Source: Siphonodentalium dalli
Lineage: Eukaryota > Mollusca > Scaphopoda > Gadilida > Siphonodentaliidae
DNA length: 64,000 bases
Assembly: GCA_032622095.1 (NCBI GenBank)
Contig: CP136065.1
Coordinates: 219,956,151 to 220,020,150 of the forward strand
Direction: 5' to 3'
Shown: in pieces, positions 3,197 to 44,300 of the stretch
How positions within the stretch are numbered: the first letter of the stretch is position 1
Layout: every line of letters begins with the position of its first letter
Program-made: the position numbers and the translations under genes
Notes under the pieces: generated by a model
Databases searched by the model: none
Seen by the model: only the letters and a program-made list of their open reading frames with translations
What the model was told of the DNA's origin: nothing

Positions 3197-3677
3197 GATC
3201 ATATTCCACTGGTACAAAACCTTGGAACTTTTTTGAAGTAGAGATAATATTTCATCATTATAAAAACATTGGATCATTTTTGAAGTTTTGACAGGGAACC
3301 TTATAAAGTCGAAACAATAACGCGGGGAATATATTTCTTTGTTACTATCTGTTCCTTAATAATGTACTTTACTATAGGTGAATGTCCCAAATTGAAATTG
3401 CAAGCTTTTGTGTGACTTTTATGAGCCGTATCGGGTATTGCAATAAATATTGTATTAATTGCCAGTGATAAATTCCATAATTGTAAGCGATGCAAAGCAA
3501 AATCGCTTACAAAGTCAATTAGATCATCAAATTATGAGTTAGGACCTTCACCTGCAGTAAAGTACATTATTAAGGAACAAATAATAACAAAGAAATATAT
3601 ACCTCGCGTTTATCTTTTCAACTTAATAAGATTCCCTGTCAAAACTTCAGAAAGTTTTGTACCAGTAGAATATGATC
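3197..3677. mobile_element. Foldback/MITE-like inverted repeat (family M, copy 1)
   Basis: GATCATATTCCACTGGTACA at 3197 is mirrored at 3658-3677. A second inner pair, TTCCTTAATAATGTACTTTA near 3352, is mirrored near 3560-3580. Both arms also carry the phrase TTTGACAGGGAA. There is no coding capacity. A relative with the same internal phrase GTGAATGTCCCAAATTGAAA lies at 43885-44310. From 3678 to 4400 I see nothing recognisable. Confidence 0.6.
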
Positions 3678-4491
3678 ATCACAGGTGTTACCCAGAATAA
3701 ACATTCATGGCATGATCTAGGTATAAGGGATAAGTTAGTACAGTATGTAGTAAAGATGTGTGATAGCTGGTGGGTACAACCATGCCTAAGAATCGATATT
3801 TATAGTCATGGTGTAGTGTCCAATATAGAAACAGGATTGGAAGCCAAATACACATCAGCGACTAGTGGAGATGACGCGTGAAACTAGTTATAAAGATGAT
3901 TGACCTCTACTATCAGTGATATTTAAATAATAAGTACTATCAGTATTAAGTCAATCAACATGCCAAGGCCACCACTGTTACTCAATGGACTCTCAATTAG
4001 GAATATTCTTTTGACAAGTAATGGTAACATACATGTATAATTGTACTAATATTTGAACTGTGGTGGTCAGTATTTGAATTTTAAAGCTTTTTGTTGCCAT
4101 CCCAGTTAAGCAAAGGGGTGGTTTATAATTATTAGCTCCATCGTGCGTTCCATAATATTTCTTTTACTTTTACTTTGACAATTGCGGCCAACACGACGCA
4201 TAATTCGAAGCCTGTGGGTATAATAATAAATCCTGAATAATAAGTTTTGTAAACCCAATTTTAAATGGTCGATCAAATAAATAATCCAATACATAACAAC
4301 TGATATCAGGAACATCTTGTCCAGACGGCACCAAACTGTGATGGGTAAACTGTGCCGATGTAATTCACGATTTGCACACAGTACAAATACGCGGCGATAT
4401 GTTACACTGGTGTAAATACTATAGGCAGCCCCCCCCCCCCCGCGGTTGCGAGAGGAGTATAAAGTTTCACAGTTAAAACACCCTGGGCTGT

Positions 4492-5382
4492 CATCACCAC
4501 GACCAGTCGGACCTCCAGAGAGCTTGATTCGCCACCTCTCAGGATGAACTCACCACCGTTAATACCAATTAGTGTCACTAATATGCTGGACGCCATGCAT
4601 GTCACGCCTTGTCTGAGCTGGTCACTTCATGCTCATAAAGGCGGATACCAGCTGGTTCTGGATTTCCAAACCGGCCCGGCACAGCCCTTTTCAGGGCTCC
4701 CTACCGGACCGGAAAATACCAGATCAGCACGGAAACCACGACAAAAGATGAACAAGAAAAAGAAGAAAACACCATCAAGGAAAAAAAGAGATGCCGAGAG
4801 ACTAGCCGCGTGGAAAGAGAAGAAGGCGACGGATGTTACACCAGCCAGCTCCTCCCATGCAGTAGAGATCCCGGCCCAGTCTGTCCAGGAGATGGAATCA
4901 CCACCACCATCGCCTCCACGGACAGACGCGGACACCTCCGACTTCAACCCGAAGACTCCGGAATACATCGAGCCGGAGCCTGCCAATCCTATATCACCGG
5001 TAACCGAACAAGAAACAGATGCCACCCGCCTATGGAGAGAAAACTACATGAAAGAATCATCTAAATATCTCGCCAGAGTGGACGAATCAATTAAGAAAGC
5101 AGAAGAGACTAGAAAAAAAGCAGAAGAGACTAGAATAAAAGCAAAGACAGTCTTAGACGAATTAGATCCACCGAAAAGTAAAAACAAAAAAAGGAAAAAA
5201 CTAAAAGCAACCAGCAAAAACTAAACATCTCAACCTCACTTTGCCTCCGGTCAGCCTCCGCATCTGAACAGCATCAACAGCCTCAAAAATCGATCTCCAT
5301 CGAATATATCAAGAAAGGGTGAAGGGACTTGCACACTGCAGTCCGACCACCCTACCCGGCCTTCGGCCGGAAACGACTCAAC
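4492..5382 (+). mobile_element. 891-bp insertion with 15-bp target duplications
   Basis: The sequence AACACCCTGGGCTGT stands on both sides (4477-4491 and 5383-5397), whereas the right unit has a single version of it. This marks an insertion event. A 15-bp duplication is typical of target-primed retrotransposition. There is no poly-A tail. A GC stem-loop (CCGGCC, loop TTC, GGCCGG, 5356-5370) sits 12 bases before the 3' edge and could be a recognition hairpin. The insert carries the reading frame at 4544-5224, starting 52 bp from its left edge. Confidence 0.75.
4544..5224 (+). CDS. Gag-like basic/acidic protein inside the nested insertion
   Basis: A 226-residue frame lying wholly inside the nested insertion. 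The first ~60 residues are mixed (LSWSLHAHKGGYQLVLDF). Next comes a strongly basic block, KMNKKKKKTPSRKKRDAERL, at about residues 66-88, then an acidic Pro/Ser-rich middle (PPPSPPRTDADTSDF, KTPEYIEPEPANP). The Lys/Glu-rich C-terminus has a duplicated KAEETR motif that could form a short coiled coil. It ends in another basic cluster. The K-x-P-S-R-x-x-R-D pattern followed by a W/K-rich helix recurs in uncharacterised retroelement-associated Gag-like proteins of marine invertebrates, which is my basis for the label. No zinc knuckle or enzyme motif is seen. A host-derived captured exon is the alternative. Confidence 0.45.
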   Translation: MNSPPLIPISVTNMLDAMHVTPCLSWSLHAHKGGYQLVLDFQTGPAQPFSGLPTGPENTRSARKPRQKMNKKKKKTPSRKKRDAERLAAWKEKKATDVTPASSSHAVEIPAQSVQEMESPPPSPPRTDADTSDFNPKTPEYIEPEPANPISPVTEQETDATRLWRENYMKESSKYLARVDESIKKAEETRKKAEETRIKAKTVLDELDPPKSKNKKRKKLKATSKN

Positions 5383-5838
5383 AACACCCTGGGCTGTGAT
5401 TGTTGCATGAATTAAAAGTAAACTGTTGACATTCAAGGAATCATTCTCCCACAAACTTCATTTGCCAAGAGGCCCATTCATTAAAGGTGAAGTCTGTTGT
5501 GGCTCTTTAGAAATTTTAAGTGTGATTGAAAAAATGACAATATTTTTTTAGTGCGGAACTGACCCTAGTTATGAAAAAAAGAAAATTTGAAGTGGATTCC
5601 CTGCCTGACGGTGTTGATTTTTTTTATTGGGAAAGTTTCCACAGATGTTAATCTCACATAATCCGAAGGCAGTTTGAACAGTTTCCATTTGACCTCTGAT
5701 GCAGATCAACAAACGTTAACATTGAAGCCTATGGGAAATATTTACATCAGTGTAACCTAAAGGTATTTATCAAGTTCCTGATAGCATGTCCCAAATCCAA
5801 TTTTTAAACACACATTTAAGTCATACAAGTGAATCAAA

Positions 5839-6237
5839 ATGGAGGAGAGTCGTTTTTATAATTTTTACAATGCGAAATTATCCGAAACATCTAGATATGA
5901 GGGGTTGTTCGGCTGTCGCGTGTGGACAGGTCGGACAAGAAAGGACGGCTATGGATATTTATATGTCAAGTTCCCGTCGAGTAATAATTCTGAGCCCGGT
6001 GAACCGAGGAAGGATTGGGGTGTCCACCGAATAGCATTCGTCATACGACACAGACTAGCGATGTCTCCACCCGCCTATTACCCTGGCAGCCCAGAACTTA
6101 GTCACATATGCCATAGAAAGACATGTGTAAATCCTGACCACATTGTTACGGAGAGCCATGAAAAAAATGTCGAACGACGCCATTGCGAGGGACAGAAATG
6201 CTGCACAAGGGCACATAGACCCTTTTGTCTGATTTGA
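5839..6237 (+). CDS. I-PpoI-like His-Cys box (His-Me finger) endonuclease
   Basis: An intronless 132-residue protein, near the size of small His-Cys box homing endonucleases. After FGCRVWTGRTRKDGYGYL (Cys26) comes the core LSHICHRKTCVNPDH, then ESHEKN, then HCEGQKCCTRAHRPFC at the C-terminus. Counted from His89, Cys/His/Asn residues fall at +2 (Cys91), +7 (Cys96), +12 (His101), +21 (Asn110) and +27 (Cys116). I-PpoI has His98, Cys100, Cys105, His110, Asn119 and Cys125 at the same spacing, so the general base, the metal-binding Asn and the first zinc site are all present. The second zinc site (Cys116, Cys121/122, His126, Cys130) is also complete. It should make a double-strand DNA break. It lies inside the composite element and its stop is 20 bp from the stop of the converging transposase gene. 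The first ATG in frame is used. There is no frameshift, unlike its neighbour. Confidence 0.8.
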   Translation: MEESRFYNFYNAKLSETSRYEGLFGCRVWTGRTRKDGYGYLYVKFPSSNNSEPGEPRKDWGVHRIAFVIRHRLAMSPPAYYPGSPELSHICHRKTCVNPDHIVTESHEKNVERRHCEGQKCCTRAHRPFCLI

Positions 6238-6257
6238 GTTAAAGAGAAAGGTACATT

Positions 6258-8757
6258 TCACCTCCTTGGTTTAACCCTTTTCCACTTGGATGACTTAGTG
6301 TATGTGTGTTCCTTTAACTGTTTGGGACATGCTTCAGGAGGAATCATGATATCTTTCTGATAGGAAATGTCCTCACTATGTTTGTCGTAGAGGGCATATA
6401 ACTTTGCCCTCCTGTCCACTCTTGCCCGTTTGGACTTTTTTGTCATTTTATATGATCGCAAGTCATTTCCAGCCTTCTGTACTGCTGCAAGTCTTTTGGA
6501 TACTTTTGATCTTGGGTGAATCTCACAATCAAGTTCTTTACACAACACAGAGATGGAATTCCCACAGCCTAAATTTGTGGAATGGCAAGCTGAATGTGCA
6601 CGCCCACTAACATTTCGGGTAAATGTCACATTTTTGGGCCGCGATACCCGAATTGCTCTGTTGAATGCTTCGGCTTTTTGCGTGTTCATGCCAAGAAAAG
6701 TCTTGTCAATCATTTTTGGACACAGTCTGTAGTCAACACACTCCGTGAGAATATCCGAACAGTCCGAAGTTTTATTGATCGTAAATTTGGGTCCTAGCAC
6801 AGTTTCATTTTTAACGATCCAGTTGGATTTTTTCGTTCCCTTGCACAGATATGAATATTTTTTACACATAACATGGGAGTTTTGGAAACACTTTACTATT
6901 GCTTCTTTCACTTTCAGTAAATGTTTCTTCATTCCTTCAGCGTTGGCTTTGAAATGCTTTCTTGCTGATGTCAATTCATCCTGACATCGATCAGAAATGT
7001 TCATTGCGAGTTTATTTATCAGTTTTGATTTGCTTTTTAGGTCAGGTCCAGCGATGAGAGTCGGCAGCTTCTTATGGTTTTTGATGAATTTCCGATGGTT
7101 TCTCGAGACATGAGCTGAGTCCAGTTGATGAGTTGGTCTGGTCGCTGTTGCTCCTTCGTCATAGAGATCCTCACAGCCTTTGAAGCCCGCTGCATCGGGA
7201 TCAGTAACAAGGTGACCAATCTCGATATTGCTATTGGTTTTCATTTCACCAAATGCTTCTTTCGCCCATGTTCTCTCATCGCCGATGCTCTTCTCAAATG
7301 GAATCGTTGCGAAACAGTCTTTCCCACATGTGTGATTATCACATTTATTCAGGTGTTTGCGATTCGAACAAAGCTTGTTGTGCACCACAAGTCCAATAAT
7401 GTCATGTGACGGCGTTCGATTTTCAACAACACTGTATATAACTTGAGTGCTTGGTTGAAATGGGTTTCTGCCACTCCCAGAATAAATCGGATTGTTATAA
7501 TGCCTGTGCATCGATGATATGTGGACTCTTCTTTCCGTCAGTTTGTTGTTTACGTATGAGTTTCGAACGTCTTTCTCCGGGATCCTTTTTATTTATTTCC
7601 TCAATTTTTGGTAAACTTTTATTCGCTGTGCTCTGAATTGACTTTTCGGCTGGCGGGGGAATATTAGCACTTGCACATATGCGTCTGAATCCTTCTGCTG
7701 CAATGGGTGTTTTAGATAATCCGACTGAAAGTCCAACATTTGGTTTTGCTGGTCTCCTGCCACGGTTCCCTGTTATAATTTCATCATACAGGTTGAAAAT
7801 TTCAGATTTAAAATCACAACACGTGCAAATCATTTTCTCTCAACATCCAATCCACGAATTTCCTCAGCGTTCATGTCCCAGTATAGGAATCCTGTACACG
7901 TGGGTTTATATACCTTATGTTTTTCGAAGGAAGAGTTCCACATCATCGCATTTCGGCGTATATTGACCACCCAGTTCGATTCGCATTCGCGTTGCCAACC
8001 ACTGACACATCTCTTGTCTGGGCTATAATTTCTGAAAATTAAAAATTAAAATCCTAAATTTTACTCTTTGAACCATATATATTAAAGGTACATACATATC
8101 AGTCTAACTGTGAGATATTTTTTTTCTTTAAAAACACTGCCTGCTCCAAACAGTCCTTTGAATGAATAGTTAACTAAAGCACTCACAGTGCTGCAATTTA
8201 ATTTATATATCTGCATGCAAAGCAATGTTATACCTGTGCTGTTTGCAATTAGTGACCCAATTCATATGAACAGAATAAGGGGAGTAACTCTATCTGCAAA
8301 TTATTAGGCTGAAAACCTGTGTTTTGACTCAGGGTACAGTTCTCAAAGCATTTCCTGCACAAAGAGGTATGGGGCTTGTCAAATTAAATGTTTTATTTTA
8401 TGCAGGAGGACACAGCCGAGATTTTGAAAAAAGATTTTAAAGTCATACACTTGATTTCAGAAGATCAAATCTATGTTTAATTTATTGATATTATTTCATA
8501 CCCCCCCCCATTTCTTATCTATATGATGAAAAGAACATGCATATAACATTGTTTGCCGCGTGGAATATTGTAAGAGATGTTTACCTTTCATTTTTTCTTT
8601 CAGGCTCTTTGTTGTCAGATTGACCCTTCCCTCTTGGATTAAGACTGTTTGCAGCTGACCGAGTTTGATGTGCTCTCACAGAGTTTGGCTTTTCAAGAAT
8701 GTCCAGTGATGTAATGATCGTTCTTTCGCGTAAATGTTTCACTACTCTGTTATCCAC
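6258..8757 (-). pseudogene. Mutator-type DDE transposase, one intron, two frameshifts
   Basis: Minus strand. Exon 1 (open from 8757 to 8585) reads HLRERTIITSLDILEKPNSV and ends ..GAAAG|GTAAAC. Exon 2 starts after TTTTCAG at 8031, and the split Arg codon restores phase. It continues as RCVSGWQRECESNW, then IPPPAEKSIQ, then IIDAQ followed after a shift by YNNPIYSGSGRNPFQPSTQ. Next come IGHLVTDPDAAGFKG and LDSAHVSRNHRKF, and TFLGMNTQKAEAFNRAI, ending at 6258. This order matches the metazoan 'Mutator-like transposase' family: first Asp before YNNP, second Asp in the DPDA/F block, Glu in the xAExFN block. Two single-base shifts break it: one near 7833 in an AAAA run (a base short) and one near 7503 (a base extra, directly behind the first catalytic Asp). 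They have opposite sign, so the outer frames agree. Either the copy is dead or the assembly has indel errors. Confidence 0.65.
8032..8584 (-). other. Probable intron of the transposase gene
   Basis: Bounded by GTAAAC at 8584 and AATTTTCAG ending at 8032, read on the minus strand. The phase is compatible with both sides. It includes a C run near 8502-8510 and no coding signal. Confidence 0.5.
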
Positions 8758-9171
8758 TTATGGTTGTCGCTTGGCTTTATACAACTATTTGTGTCCTGGT
8801 TTTAATCTAAGGGGATTTTCACATTTAAACTTCATTGTCTCACAGTCCTCACAAATTCCAAAATCCACTCAACAACTCTGTCACATTAACAGCATTAATT
8901 TGGAAAATTCTTCTCGCGAATATACAACTTCCAGAATGTGGTATAACTTCTCATGCTTTATTAGATGCCTTAAATTAAACTCAAATCCAACCTGCATTTT
9001 AGCTTTTTATTCTGAATTAGTGTATTATTGGGTGGGTTCCAATTAAAGTGACACATGGCATTAAAAACACATTTTTAAAAAACAACATCAGTTTAATAAT
9101 TATAGGTATATATCAAGGTTCACAATGGGTTATGCACAAAAAATATGAAGAAAGGCCACATGGCCCTTTAG

Positions 9172-9620
9172 GTTACACGGGTGTAAATACTATAGGCAGC
9201 TCCCCCCTGTGGTTGCGGGAGGAGTATAAAGTTTCACAGTTAAACACTCTGGGCTGTGATTGGTTGCATGAATTAAAAGTAAACTGTTGACAAAAATTCA
9301 AGGAATCATTCTCCCACAAACTTCATTTGCCAAGAGGCCCATTCATTAAAGGTGAAGTCTGTTGTGGCTCTTTAGAAATTTTAAGTGTGATTGAAAAAAT
9401 GACAACATTTTTTTAGTGCGGAACTGACCCTAGTTATGAAAAAACGAAAATTTGAAGCGGATACCCTGCCTGACGGTGTTGATTTTTTTATTGGGAAAGT
9501 TTCCACAGATGTCAATCTCACATAATCCGAAGGCAGTTTGAACAGTTTCCATTTGACCTCTGATGCAGATCAACAAACGTTAACATTGAAGCCTATGGGA
9601 AATATTTACACCAGTGTAAC
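9172..9620 (+). repeat. Right 449-bp flanking unit of the composite
   Basis: An uninterrupted copy of the unit at 4401-5756. It starts GTTACACGGGTGTAAATACT and ends ATTTACACCAGTGTAAC, so its ends form an 18-bp TIR with one mismatch. It has no reading frame of note and looks like a non-autonomous TIR element. Its orientation is the same as the left unit. Confidence 0.85.
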
Positions 9621-10237
9621 CGATAGCGAGACACAGTGGGGAAGGGGACATAATATACCAGCAAAGCAAATATGTGAACTCTATATATATACGTGCTTAA
9701 AGTCGGACGTCGTTCCTCTTTTGTATTTGTCGTAATGTTTGGCGTTTGCGGATAAAAGTTTATATTAATAATCTTGGAAAATATCCCGTGAAAACATATC
9801 ATACGTGGTGAGCGAACACAAATTATAATTACAATGTTGTTTGCATAGAGCACATGAGTGAAAATTGCACTCAGTCATGGCTCAAATTCATTAATTTGTT
9901 ACATTTATACTATGTTCAGTATAAAAGGAGATGGGCCCATAAATGGCCCGATTTAGTGTACAGTACCCAAATAAACAAACCCCGTTCAGTACATTTGGTC
10001 TCAACAGCCAATTACCATGGAAACTGCGACCAGAATCTACCTTCTTAAACCCCGTTATCCGGTTGTACATCGTGTGCTTCATGCAGTCTTTATTTATCCA
10101 CCATCCTCTGTTGTTTTCTTAGTCTCGTACCTGGCTCAGACACTCCGCTCACTGTTCCGTCCAACTCCATGACATAACGCTTCCGCCGGAACGTTGCGCC
10201 TTAGCGTAGTGGAGGCTGAGCGCTAGGAACGAGTCCA
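9621..10237. other. No feature recognised
   Basis: AT-rich unique-looking sequence between the composite transposon and a small tandem array. I found no convincing reading frame or repeat. Confidence 0.4.
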
Positions 10238-12784: not shown

Positions 12785-13857
12785 ATAATATCACAGATGT
12801 CACATAATATCACAGGGGTCACATAATATCACAGAGGTCACATAATATCATAGATGTCACATAATATCATAGATGTCACATAATATCACAGATGTCACAT
12901 AATATCACAGAGGTCACATAATATTACAGAGGTCACATAATATCATAGATGTCACATAATATCACAGAGGTCACATAATATTACAGAGGTCACATAATAT
13001 CATAGATGTCACATAATATTACAGAGGTCACATAATATCATAGATGTCACATAATATCATAGATGTCACATAATATCACAGATATAACACAATATCACAG
13101 AGGTAACATAATATCACAGAGGTAACATAATATCACAGAGGTAACATAATATCACAGAGGTAACATAATATCACAGATGTCACATAATATCACAGAGGTC
13201 ACATAATATCACAGAGGTAACATAATATCATAGATGTCACATAATATCACAGAGGTCACATAATATCATAGATGTCACATAATATCATAGATGTCACATA
13301 ATATCACAGATATAACACAATATCACAGAGGTAACATAATATCACAGAGGTAACATAATATCACAGAGGTAACATAATATCACAGAGGTAACATAATATC
13401 ACAGAGGTCACATAATATCACAGAGGTAACATAATATCACAGAGGTAACACAATATCACAGAGGTAACATAATATCACAGAGGTAACATAATATCACAGA
13501 GGTAACATAATATCACAGAGGTAACATAATATCACAGAGGTAACATAATATCACAGAGGTCACATAATATCACAGAGGTCACATAATATTACAGAGGTCA
13601 CATAATATCACAGAGGTCACATAATATCACAGAGGTCACATAATATTACAGAGGTCACATAATATCATAGATGTCACATAATATCACAGAGGTCACATAA
13701 TATTACAGAGGTCACATAATATTACAGAGGTCACATAATATCACAGAGGTCACATAATATTACAGAGGTCACATAATATTACAGGGGTCACATAATATCA
13801 CAGAGGTCACATAATATCACAGAGGTCACATAATATCACAGAGGTCACATAATATCA
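12785..13857 (+). repeat. 19-bp minisatellite, about 56 copies, with higher-order repeat
   Basis: The unit is ATAATATCACAGAGGTCAC, with variants at a few positions (AGAGGTCAC, AGATGTCAC, AGAGGTAAC, ATTACAG, ATCATAG). A rare variant, GATATAACACAATATCACAG, appears at 13081 and again at 13309. That spacing is 228 bp, or 12 units, which shows a higher-order duplication. Most units contain AGGTCA, the nuclear-receptor half-site, giving the same half-site every 19 bp. No reading frame spans it. The 440 bp that follow hold nothing recognisable. Confidence 0.95.
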
Positions 13858-23960: not shown

Positions 23961-24341
23961 GTGACCATAGGTCGCCTCGCATATATAAGAGAATGCATTG
24001 GCCTAACAATTTTTTACAATTTTAATAAATTTTTCTTGTATTCTTTAACAATTTTATAATTTCACCCATACAGAGCCCCAGACAAACATGAGCAGACGAC
24101 ACTCTTCTATATGCTTCTATATATGTGTGGGGCTCCCTGCAGGGTATTGGATGTTTCTTATTTTATGTCCTAAAAATTGTAAGAAACATTTATTAAAAAA
24201 AAATGATAAAAAAATTGTTAGGCCAATGCATTCTCTTATATATGCGAGGCGACCTATGGTCGACTCGCATATATAAGAGAATGCATTGGCACAGGGTAAA
24301 AAAAATCCCGACTTACGGCTGGATTTGATATGGCGGGTCAC
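23961..24341 (+). mobile_element. Double-hairpin element, family A, left end deleted
   Basis: The right end is complete: TGGATTTGATATGGCGGGTC AC at 24341, the family A terminus. The left end jumps from GTGAC straight to CATAGGTCGCC, so the left TIR and half a hairpin are lost. The spacer carries the family A block CAGAGCCCCAGACAAACATG and TGTGTGGGGCTCCCTGCAGG. Confidence 0.8.
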
Positions 24342-24404: not shown

Positions 24405-24835
24405 TATTAGGCTTAGGGTTAGGGTTATGTTTAGGGTTATACCGTTATGGCTGGGGTTAGGGTGAGGGTTAAGGTTAGGGTTAGGGTCAGGGTTATGGTA
24501 AGCGTTAAGGTTAATGTTAGGGTTAGGGTCAGTCACCGTCAGTGTTAGGGTTAGGGTTAGGGTCAGGGTTAGGGTTAGGGTTATGGTCAGGTTTAGGGCC
24601 AGGGTTAGCGTTAGGGTTAGGTTAGGTTTATGCCTTTAGGGTTATGGATAGTGTTAGGGTTAGGGATATAGGGTCAGGGTTAGGGCTAGGATTAGGATTA
24701 GGATTAGGGTTAGGGTTATGGCTAGGGTTACTGCTATGGTTAGGGTTAAGGTTCGGGATAGGGTTAGGGTTATGGCTAGGGTTAGGCTTAGGGTTATGGC
24801 TAGGGCTAGGGTTAGGGTTAGGGCATTCCTTGCTG
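24405..24835 (+). repeat. Interstitial telomere-like TTAGGG tract
   Basis: About 430 bp of degenerate TTAGGG (also TTATGG, TTAAGG, TCAGGG, CTAGGG) in one orientation. The frames at 24117-24536 and 24644-25000 (poly GLGLGLW or PNPNLN) are products of the repeat. It lies 60 bp after a hairpin element and abuts a foldback on its right. Confidence 0.9.
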
Positions 24836-41398: not shown

Positions 41399-44300
41399 AG
41401 GATGGAGGGAGAGAGATTGGGTAGGTAAAGAGGGGAAACGACACAGAAAGACAAGACACCGAGAAATACGCCCTTACATGTGTGTGTTCGTGTGTGCCTC
41501 ATAACCGGTGTGTGTTCGTGTATGCCTCCTTACCTGTGTATGTTCATGTGTACCTCATTACCTGTGTATGTTCATGTGTACCTCCTTACCTGTGTATGTT
41601 CATGTGTACCTCCTTACCTGTGTGTGTTCATGTGTACCTCCTTACCTGTGTGTGTTCGTGTATGCCTCCGTACCTGTGTGTGTTCGTGTATGCCGCCTTA
41701 CCTGTGTGTGTTCGTGTGTGCCTCCTATATAACCTTTGTGTGCCTCTTACCTGTGTGTGTTCGGGTGTGCCTCTTGAGATCAAATGTATCATTGAACCCC
41801 TTCCCGCAAATAGAACATATATATTTCTTGACCATTGGATGTTCGTGAAGGTGTCGCTGCAGATTTCTTTTCGACGAGTAACCGACTCCACACAGCTTGC
41901 AAATGAACTGTGTCTGATTGGCTGTGAACATAAGATCAATATATACATTTAAAGTGATGTGAAACACTTCGGTAGGGTGATCAAATAGAAATGGAGTATA
42001 ATCTTGCTCAGAATAGTTATTTTTTACAAATGTTATATCCAAATTGACAACGCACACCGTCACTCTTATATATAAATTAAATGCAGCGGCTCTCGATGAC
42101 AAATGTTTTTTCGTTTGGTTATCGCCGATAGTTGCTTCCCGAATCGAGAAGTAAATATTTACAATTGGGCGTATTTCAGACGATGTTTTCTCTGGAGTGG
42201 TACGGTCAATTTGCTTGAGACTTTCGGCAATGTTTATAGAATGGCACATTCCTCCAGTTGACACAGTGCCTGAATAATAACGTATTAGTTTCACGCGGTC
42301 GTAAGTCGGGATTGTTTTACCCTGTGCCAATGCATTCTCTTATATATGCGAGTCGACCATAGGTCGCCTCGCATATATAAGAGAATACATTGGCCTAACA
42401 ATTTTTTACAATTTTAATAATTTTTTCTTGTATTCTTTAACAATTTTATAATTTCACCCATACAGAGCCCCAGACAAACATGAGCAGACGACACTATTCT
42501 ATATGCTTCTATATATGTGTGGGGCAGGGTAATGGATGTTTTTTTATTTTATGTCCTAAAAATTGTAAGAAAAATTTATTTTAAAAAAATGATAAAAAAT
42601 TGTTAGGCCAATGCATTCTCTTATATATGCGAGGCGACCTATGGTCGACTCGCATATATAAGAGAATGCATTGGCACAGGGTAAAAAAATCCCGACTTAC
42701 GACTGGATTTCGTATGTCGAAATCATTGCTATGTAAACCAAGTGCATAATATGTCTTTAAGTGGGATTGTCATTTGAAATAATTCAACTGCTCTTAAAAA
42801 CGAATCAGCATACTCCCCTTCCCGGATCACAAACCCGCGTGCTTATCGCGATTATAACCACCTTCTCCGTCGCTGGACGAAGCATGCTGATCTAATGCAC
42901 CTGACCAACTTACCAACCGGGGGGGGGGGGGGGGTCGGTGTTACATCGTTTCAATTCATTCACAGAAACACAGCGGACAGCAACTTAAGTCAGAATGCAC
43001 TTCTCTGAGATATACATGTAGTCAAGAGGAAATATGTTTATTTTCACCTGTTAATGTACATGTTCAATGTAGAATGTAGGTTCGCCTGCGTATGCCATGA
43101 ACATTTTTAGTTTCGCCTGCGTATGTCATGAACATGTTTAGTATATGTCATGAACATGTTTAGTTTCGCCCGCGTATGTCATGAATATGTTTTGTTTCGA
43201 CTGCGTATATTTATCATGAACATGTTTAGTTTCGCCTGCGTAGACGTCATGCACATATCTATAGTTTCGCCTGCGTATGTCATGAACATGTTCAGTATAT
43301 GTCATGAACATTTTTAGTTTCGCCTGCGTATGTCATGAACATGTTCAGTATATGTCATGAACATTTTTAGTTTCGCCTGCGTATGTCATGAACATGTTCA
43401 GTATATGTCATGAACATTTTAGTTTCGCCTGCGTATGTCATGAACATGTTCAGTATATGTCATGAACATTTTTAGTTTCGCCTGCGTATGTCATGAATAT
43501 GTTTGGAAAGAACTCAGCGCATGTAAATTTAATCACTTTTGTTATCTTTTGTGTGGAAGGGTTTGTAGAGCGGATTCCTGATTCCGTAACCATGGTTTAC
43601 TTACTTTTGTTATCTTTCGTGTGGAAGGGTTTGTAGAGCGGATTCCGGATTCCGTAACCATGGTTTATCGTCTCCATGGGTAATTGTTGCATCTAAAATC
43701 AATGACATATTTTCAACATCAATAGAAAATACTCTATATATCTATATGTGTATGCTATGCAATAGTTGCATTTCGGCGAATTATTTCAACCATGGCACCA
43801 AGCAGCTTTAGTGATCATATCCGAGCATTATCCAGGTTAGATGTTAACATACTTCGGGGATCTTATCACATAGTATATATAGAACATGTCATGGATCTCT
43901 ACTCCAGCTACGCGCGTATATGGATCGTATATACTTCACCAGTTCAAAACGTGAGCACTTTTTGATGTTGTCACATTAAAAAACAGTGCAGGTAACATAT
44001 TTCTTAGTTAATACCTGATACTTAATAATGTATTTCACTGTAAGTGAATGTCCCAAATTGAAAGTGCATACTTTCAGTCACTTCGTGGGTGATTTTGGAT
44101 CATGGAATTTCTCCCGGGCAATTAATTCAATGTTTTTTTGCGACACCAGCTCATCACAGCTCGAGCTGGGACCTTGCCTTGTTTGTTCAAAGTTAAATAA
44201 AGTTCCCTGTCAGAAGTGGTCAGAACTTGAAAAAAGTTCCCAGGTTTGAACTGGTGGGATATAATCTCTACGGACGTATATAGCTGGAGTAGAGATTCGT

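Follow-up and report, generated by a model that had tools for sequence, protein, structure and literature searches.

The presence of a homing-type endonuclease gene and a transposase gene between direct repeats in the genome of the scaphopod Siphonodentalium dalli raises the question of whether these parts form a single mobile element and, if so, to which kind it belongs and what the nuclease contributes. The locus lies in a window of 64,000 nucleotides (C5:219956151-220020150 of a 2.23-Gb genome), and the original prediction, made from these letters, described a composite transposon at 4401..9620 in which two ~450-bp units bounded by terminal inverted repeats (TIRs) enclose an I-PpoI-type nuclease and a Mutator-type transposase, a combination it took to be undescribed. 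The direct units, the motifs and the layout are real, as judged by TIR shuffles, block identity and Pfam matches. The element is also unusual, yet its kind was already described in 2022 as KolobokP, a part of the Kolobok superfamily found in molluscs and other animals (Kojima and Bao, 2022; PMC9587614).

The predicted locus was right and its ends needed adjustment, since comparison with a second full copy (L017) and with an array of 4495-bp spacing places the whole element, arranged as long terminal direct repeat (LTDR), internal region (INT) and LTDR, at 4400..9621. The LTDRs are two direct repeats of ~451 bp with the form GGTTACAC..GTGTAACC, and the longest ungapped blocks common to both are 203 nt at 96% and 144 nt at 97% identity. 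Their TIR motif, with up to 3 mismatches allowed, occurs 4 times in the window, whereas 100 shuffles gave 0.23 on average and never as many as 4. The right LTDR (9171..9621, plus strand) is 451 bp long; the left one (4400..5757, plus strand) is interrupted by an 891-bp insert (4492..5382, plus strand) that is bordered by a 15-bp duplication, AACACCCTGGGCTGT, at 4477-4491 and 5383-5397. Between the LTDRs, the INT (5758..9170) starts with TAAAGG and ends with CCTTTA, which are inverted complements. Its plus strand carries an I-PpoI-like nuclease frame (5839..6237) and its minus strand the disrupted main coding part of a Kolobok-type DDE transposase (about 6258..8045), plus a possible 5' exon of that gene (8590..8835) whose position was carried over from a 95-codon upstream open frame seen in an array copy.

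This copy has a history of its own. Window positions 3438-9621, element included, have an inverted duplicate at a distance of 5.5 Mb (L024, C5:225453360-225461073); the two longest parts compared, of 1057 bp and 2352 bp, are 98.8% and 98.4% identical, respectively. Because the LTDR is uninterrupted in this segmental duplicate, the 891-bp insert is most simply explained as later than the duplication. The insert holds most of a 253-codon lysine- and proline-rich open frame (stop to stop, 4463-5224) that has no Pfam match, and a 66-base piece of it is found again at another locus (L014) with 88% identity.

Elsewhere in the window there are a degenerate TTAGGG repeat with a telomere-like but interstitial character (24407-24823; 69 copies, 73% matches), a 19-bp tandem repeat of 56.5 copies (12785-13857), a dispersed repeat of ~380-460 bp that occurs at least five times with 89-97% identity (at 23963, 37071, 38697, 42298 and 62188), and a 204-codon open frame on the minus strand (41725-42339) that by eye has the look of a C2H2 zinc-finger protein. 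An Rfam scan of the window gave zero matches.

Several observations bear on whether the composite was inserted as one unit. Once GG..CC is taken as the element ends, the near-matching 6-bp flanks originally reported (CGATAT/CGATAG) give way to a perfect 4-bp target site duplication (TSD), GATA, at 4396..4399 and 9622..9625. GG..CC termini were found in the six elements whose ends were inspected, with the window copy carrying T in place of the first G seen in the other copies compared. The DNA that flanks the window element is itself an older dispersed repeat, so related sites could be sought with the two flanks joined via a single GATA: 5 of 43 genome matches span the junction, and all four of those examined (L062-L065) are continuous without the element, with GCGATA intact in one (exact in L065) and the other three diverged at that spot. 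These paralogous empty sites indicate that the whole LTDR-INT-LTDR composite was inserted once, as a unit, in agreement with the predicted single element.

A wider TSD count points the same way. It covered 14 insertions with both ends placed, namely nine monomers (one from a second family, and six of the nine judged by end-to-end distance), two solo LTDRs and three arrays. Among 11 right ends fetched beforehand, those of L019, L024, L039 and L046 showed no right LTDR within the fetched kilobase and that of L026 was truncated, and these five loci were left out of the count. A perfect 4-bp TSD flanks 13 of these 14 insertions, including both solo LTDRs (L015, ATTA; L016, TATG) and two of the three arrays, and the sole exception is the array on C2 (TTTA/ATAA). 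The solo units with duplications of their own would suit a reading in which a small MITE was inserted twice, independently and by chance, on either side of a separate transposase-nuclease element, but the probability of this reading is close to nil: the TSD lies outside the composite, only single-base changes distinguish the LTDR/INT junctions of the window copy, L017 and the C2 array from one another, and the empty sites, which reveal one insertion, refute it.

The composite is also far from being alone in this genome. A search with the LTDR unit gave 1275 candidates, the best 40 of which were scored, and all 40 match, many of them regularly spaced; a search with the nuclease gave 446 candidates, the best 150 of which were scored, all at E≤0.001, with some representing pieces of one gene. 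Among the matches listed, spacing suggests arrays of 16 (C3), 13 (C8), 8 (C2), and 4 and 3 (C6), and further ones of 3 (C3), 3 (C9) and 2 (C5), while at least nine LTDRs stand in an array at 4495-bp spacing. The part of the C2 array that was read shows LTDR and INT in alternation, with 100% identity between two adjacent 4495-bp units. Both genes lie between the same ends in L017 and in the C2 array, as the original prediction would have it. The LTDRs of this main family measure 451-452 bp, with an 18-bp TIR and GG..CC ends, and a second family has a 458-bp repeat block.

In addition to these gene-bearing copies, a nonautonomous relative forms arrays at 1354-bp spacing that contain neither the transposase nor the nuclease gene. 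Its LTDR equals the autonomous one over 452 compared bases and its INT has no significant similarity to the autonomous INT, so LTDRs seem, from these sequences, able to enclose new cargo. Three loci (L010, at C6:18.198-18.206 Mb, L011 and L012) belong to this nonautonomous family, with an INT unrelated save for a few terminal bases. Of the 12 intervals that separate the listed LTDRs of its C6 array, 3 exceed the rest by about one INT, and in the single long interval read, INT is joined to INT with the LTDR absent and 3 bp lost.

In the window the transposase is split across three overlapping frames (6258-7592, 7495-7839 and 7830-8045), two of which match Pfam PF20700 (1e-18 and 3.6e-15) while the third has no Pfam match; in an array copy (L009), one 603-codon frame covers the whole stretch. 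The window protein also lacks the Asp of a QADG motif (Asp188), which is present in all 10 sequences that cover this position in an alignment of 12, and which we take, from the motif, to be the first catalytic Asp, the catalytic assignments in general being motif readings. Cys234/248/252, Asp290, Asp317/His320, Cys394/His399/Cys402/Cys409 and Glu467 are invariant in the same alignment, which by this reading carries the Kolobok signature of DDE, DxxH and zinc-finger residues. The transposase had 20 homologues in a protein search, and those with a named organism are all from Mytilus. 'Mutator-like' is the Pfam name for PF20700, and the C/DxxH motif is common to MuDR and Kolobok (PMC9587614), whereas the 4-bp TSD, the GG..CC termini and the zinc-finger layout are as given for Kolobok (PMC9587614). 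The transposase is thus Kolobok-like by structure rather than Mutator-type, and broken in this copy.

The published account of KolobokP allows a closer identification. It describes an INT between direct repeats of ~450 or ~660 bp that have their own short TIRs, 5'-RR..YY-3' termini and a TSD of 3-5 bp, and a transposase with DDD/E, C/DxxH and two zinc fingers, one of them a CCHC finger after the first D and the second between C/DxxH and E (PMC9587614). It also describes a His-Me finger nuclease that lies downstream on the opposite strand, with eight Cys/His residues and the S97, H98, H110, E114 and N119 of I-PpoI, as well as solo LTDRs, TSD-flanked (LTDR-INT)n-LTDR multimers and abutted INTs with a microdeletion of 3-4 bp (PMC9587614). 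The repeats and their TIRs, the termini, the TSD, the transposase motifs, the nuclease, the solo and array forms and the INT-INT microdeletion were all found here. The window element is therefore very probably a KolobokP, as judged by published layout, termini, TSD and motifs; it is an old, decayed and non-functional copy of an autonomous one.

The nuclease frame is open in the window copy and matches Pfam PF05551 (1.1e-12). All eight zinc Cys/His residues and the active-site Ser, His, Glu and Asn are present, as predicted, and alignment with I-PpoI is ungapped from Ser88 to Cys116; the second zinc site, which the original prediction had at the right spacing, is spaced unlike what we take to be the I-PpoI arrangement. 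Against PDB, the single sequence found I-PpoI at E 0.0088 and after it unrelated chains starting at 0.094, and a profile of five nucleases, with E≤1 as the limit, retrieved I-PpoI sequences alone (best 8.4e-6). No homologue came from a protein search with the nuclease sequence, and structure predictions were poor (mean pLDDT 38.8 and 48.6), with an uninformative best Foldseek match at E 2.2.

There are at least three nuclease families in the genome; identity to the window protein is 44% for the second and 30% for the third, and all zinc and catalytic positions are common to the five nucleases aligned from the three families. Of the 30 main-family copies examined, among them the window copy and eight members of a single array, 28 retain the full set of 12 positions; one zinc ligand is missing from each of L024 and L025, and L046 has a stop. 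dN/dS was 0.10-0.29 in 36 cross-subfamily pairs, all of which share one branch, and ranged from 0 to 1.2 within subfamilies, where changes are few. On C9 (208955786-209024152), clustered nuclease copies that have diverged, and some of which are broken, perhaps represent an old, decayed array.

Purifying selection between subfamilies suggests that the nuclease is probably no idle passenger, a role that the original prediction had allowed, although a selfish homing gene would likewise show such selection. It is unlikely that the nuclease takes no part in amplification of the transposon, whether it be a passenger or a selfish homing gene that uses the element as carrier. Enzymes of the I-PpoI type normally drive homing, which fits that role, and arrays without the nuclease gene expand too. 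Some published KolobokP families also have no recognised nuclease (PMC9587614). Against it stand the occurrence of the nuclease in three families, with zinc and catalytic residues shared by the five aligned sequences, and the selection itself, which tells against an idle passenger and less so against a selfish homing gene.

The mechanism that we prefer, while putting its chance at a little under even, is the published one in which breaks made by the nuclease would drive array growth. The Kolobok DDE transposase would cut at the GG..CC TIRs of the LTDRs, so that monomers, arrays or solo LTDRs could move; sequence-specific breaks in or beside an LTDR would come from the I-PpoI-like nuclease; and repair of the break from a neighbouring LTDR would yield an extra LTDR-INT unit, a process proposed for KolobokP as 'induced unequal crossover' (PMC9587614). 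Several observations tell against this explanation: the 1354-bp nonautonomous arrays grow without a nuclease gene of their own, although the enzyme could act in trans; the C2 array has no matching ends; and zinc ligands are lost in 2 of the 30 nuclease copies, with a stop in one.

Arrays and solo LTDRs could instead arise by spontaneous recombination between direct repeats or by integration of circles, as for IS26, with the nuclease serving transposition, as it would if it opened an LTDR-LTDR junction on a circle. Long identical direct repeats recombine anyway, and the abutted INTs with small deletions resemble those of circle-forming IS families. Cleavage at abutted TIRs on a circle is raised in the KolobokP paper, but its main text reports no circle, and autonomous LTR elements, which have similar repeats, form no such multimers (PMC9587614); we consider this route rather unlikely. 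Since several chromosomes carry numerous near-identical copies and arrays, this genome is well suited to asking which role the nuclease plays.

A further clue lies in the INT ends. They read TAAAGG..CCTTTA in family 1, TAAAGC..GCTTTA in family 2, TATA..TATA in family 3 and TAAAGG..GCTTTA in the nonautonomous family, and KolobokP-1_MeMe has TATA..TATA (PMC9587614). In each of these, the four bases before an inner LTDR are the inverted complement of the four after it, and the two inner LTDR/INT junctions therefore have the same reading. This symmetry is an addition here, absent from the main text on KolobokP (PMC9587614), and is suggestive only, since families 1 and 2 may share it by descent and TATA is self-complementary. 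An origin of the INT ends as old 4-bp target duplications was rejected: TATA/TATA fits, and TTTA/TAAA does not.

Speculatively, the LTDR/INT junction may be considered a candidate nuclease site, and the inverted INT ends are a short, concrete candidate substrate. The I-PpoI site is CTCTCTTAAGGTAGC (PMC6294500). At the inner junction of the main family it matches 9/15, a score attained by 14 windows of that element; for the nonautonomous family the match is 10/15, a score attained by 24 windows (repeated copies included). In families 2 and 3 each of the two inner junctions matches at 8/15, and elsewhere family 2 has 25, 9 and 1 windows with 9, 10 and 11 matches. The likeness thus appears weak and no better than at other places in the elements. 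The INT-INT junction that the departure of an LTDR would leave, read once as CGCTTTAAGGG, is a palindrome with the I-PpoI core TTAAGG, and its best window matches the site at 8/15. The LTDR would then split a near-palindrome of INT ends much as a group I intron splits a homing site, and might behave as the nuclease's 'intron', with cutting at the INT-INT junction and repair from an intact neighbour restoring the LTDR; or the inner junction might be the cut site that drives array growth. Such schemes are improbable on this analysis; if the first were true, INT-INT cutting and repair would hold the composite together.

When the element is set beside known systems, no tested feature separates it from KolobokP, to whose description this analysis adds the exact 4-bp TSD, the paralogous empty sites that go with it and the inverted-complementary INT ends. 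With MuDR/Mutator it shares the PF20700 'Mutator-like' domain and the C/DxxH motif, and differs in its direct repeats and nuclease; MuDR/Mutator elements have a TSD of 8-10 bp, and membership was rejected on the 4-bp TSD found here. With the His-Cys box homing endonucleases of group I introns, I-PpoI among them, it shares PF05551, the zinc Cys/His and the active-site residues, but its nuclease gene is carried by a DNA transposon and not known as intronic. The IS26-type pseudo-compound transposons and translocatable units, set beside KolobokP by its authors (PMC9587614), likewise have direct repeats around a cargo and arrays that share single repeats. KolobokP differs from these in having its transposase in the cargo rather than in the repeats, an extra nuclease and a eukaryotic host. 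We know of no second eukaryotic DNA transposon lineage with a bacterial-composite build and long direct terminal repeats. Its authors likewise call KolobokP the sole eukaryotic lineage of DNA transposons built in this way (PMC9587614), and the joining of such a composite-like build to a homing-type endonuclease is what makes it noteworthy.
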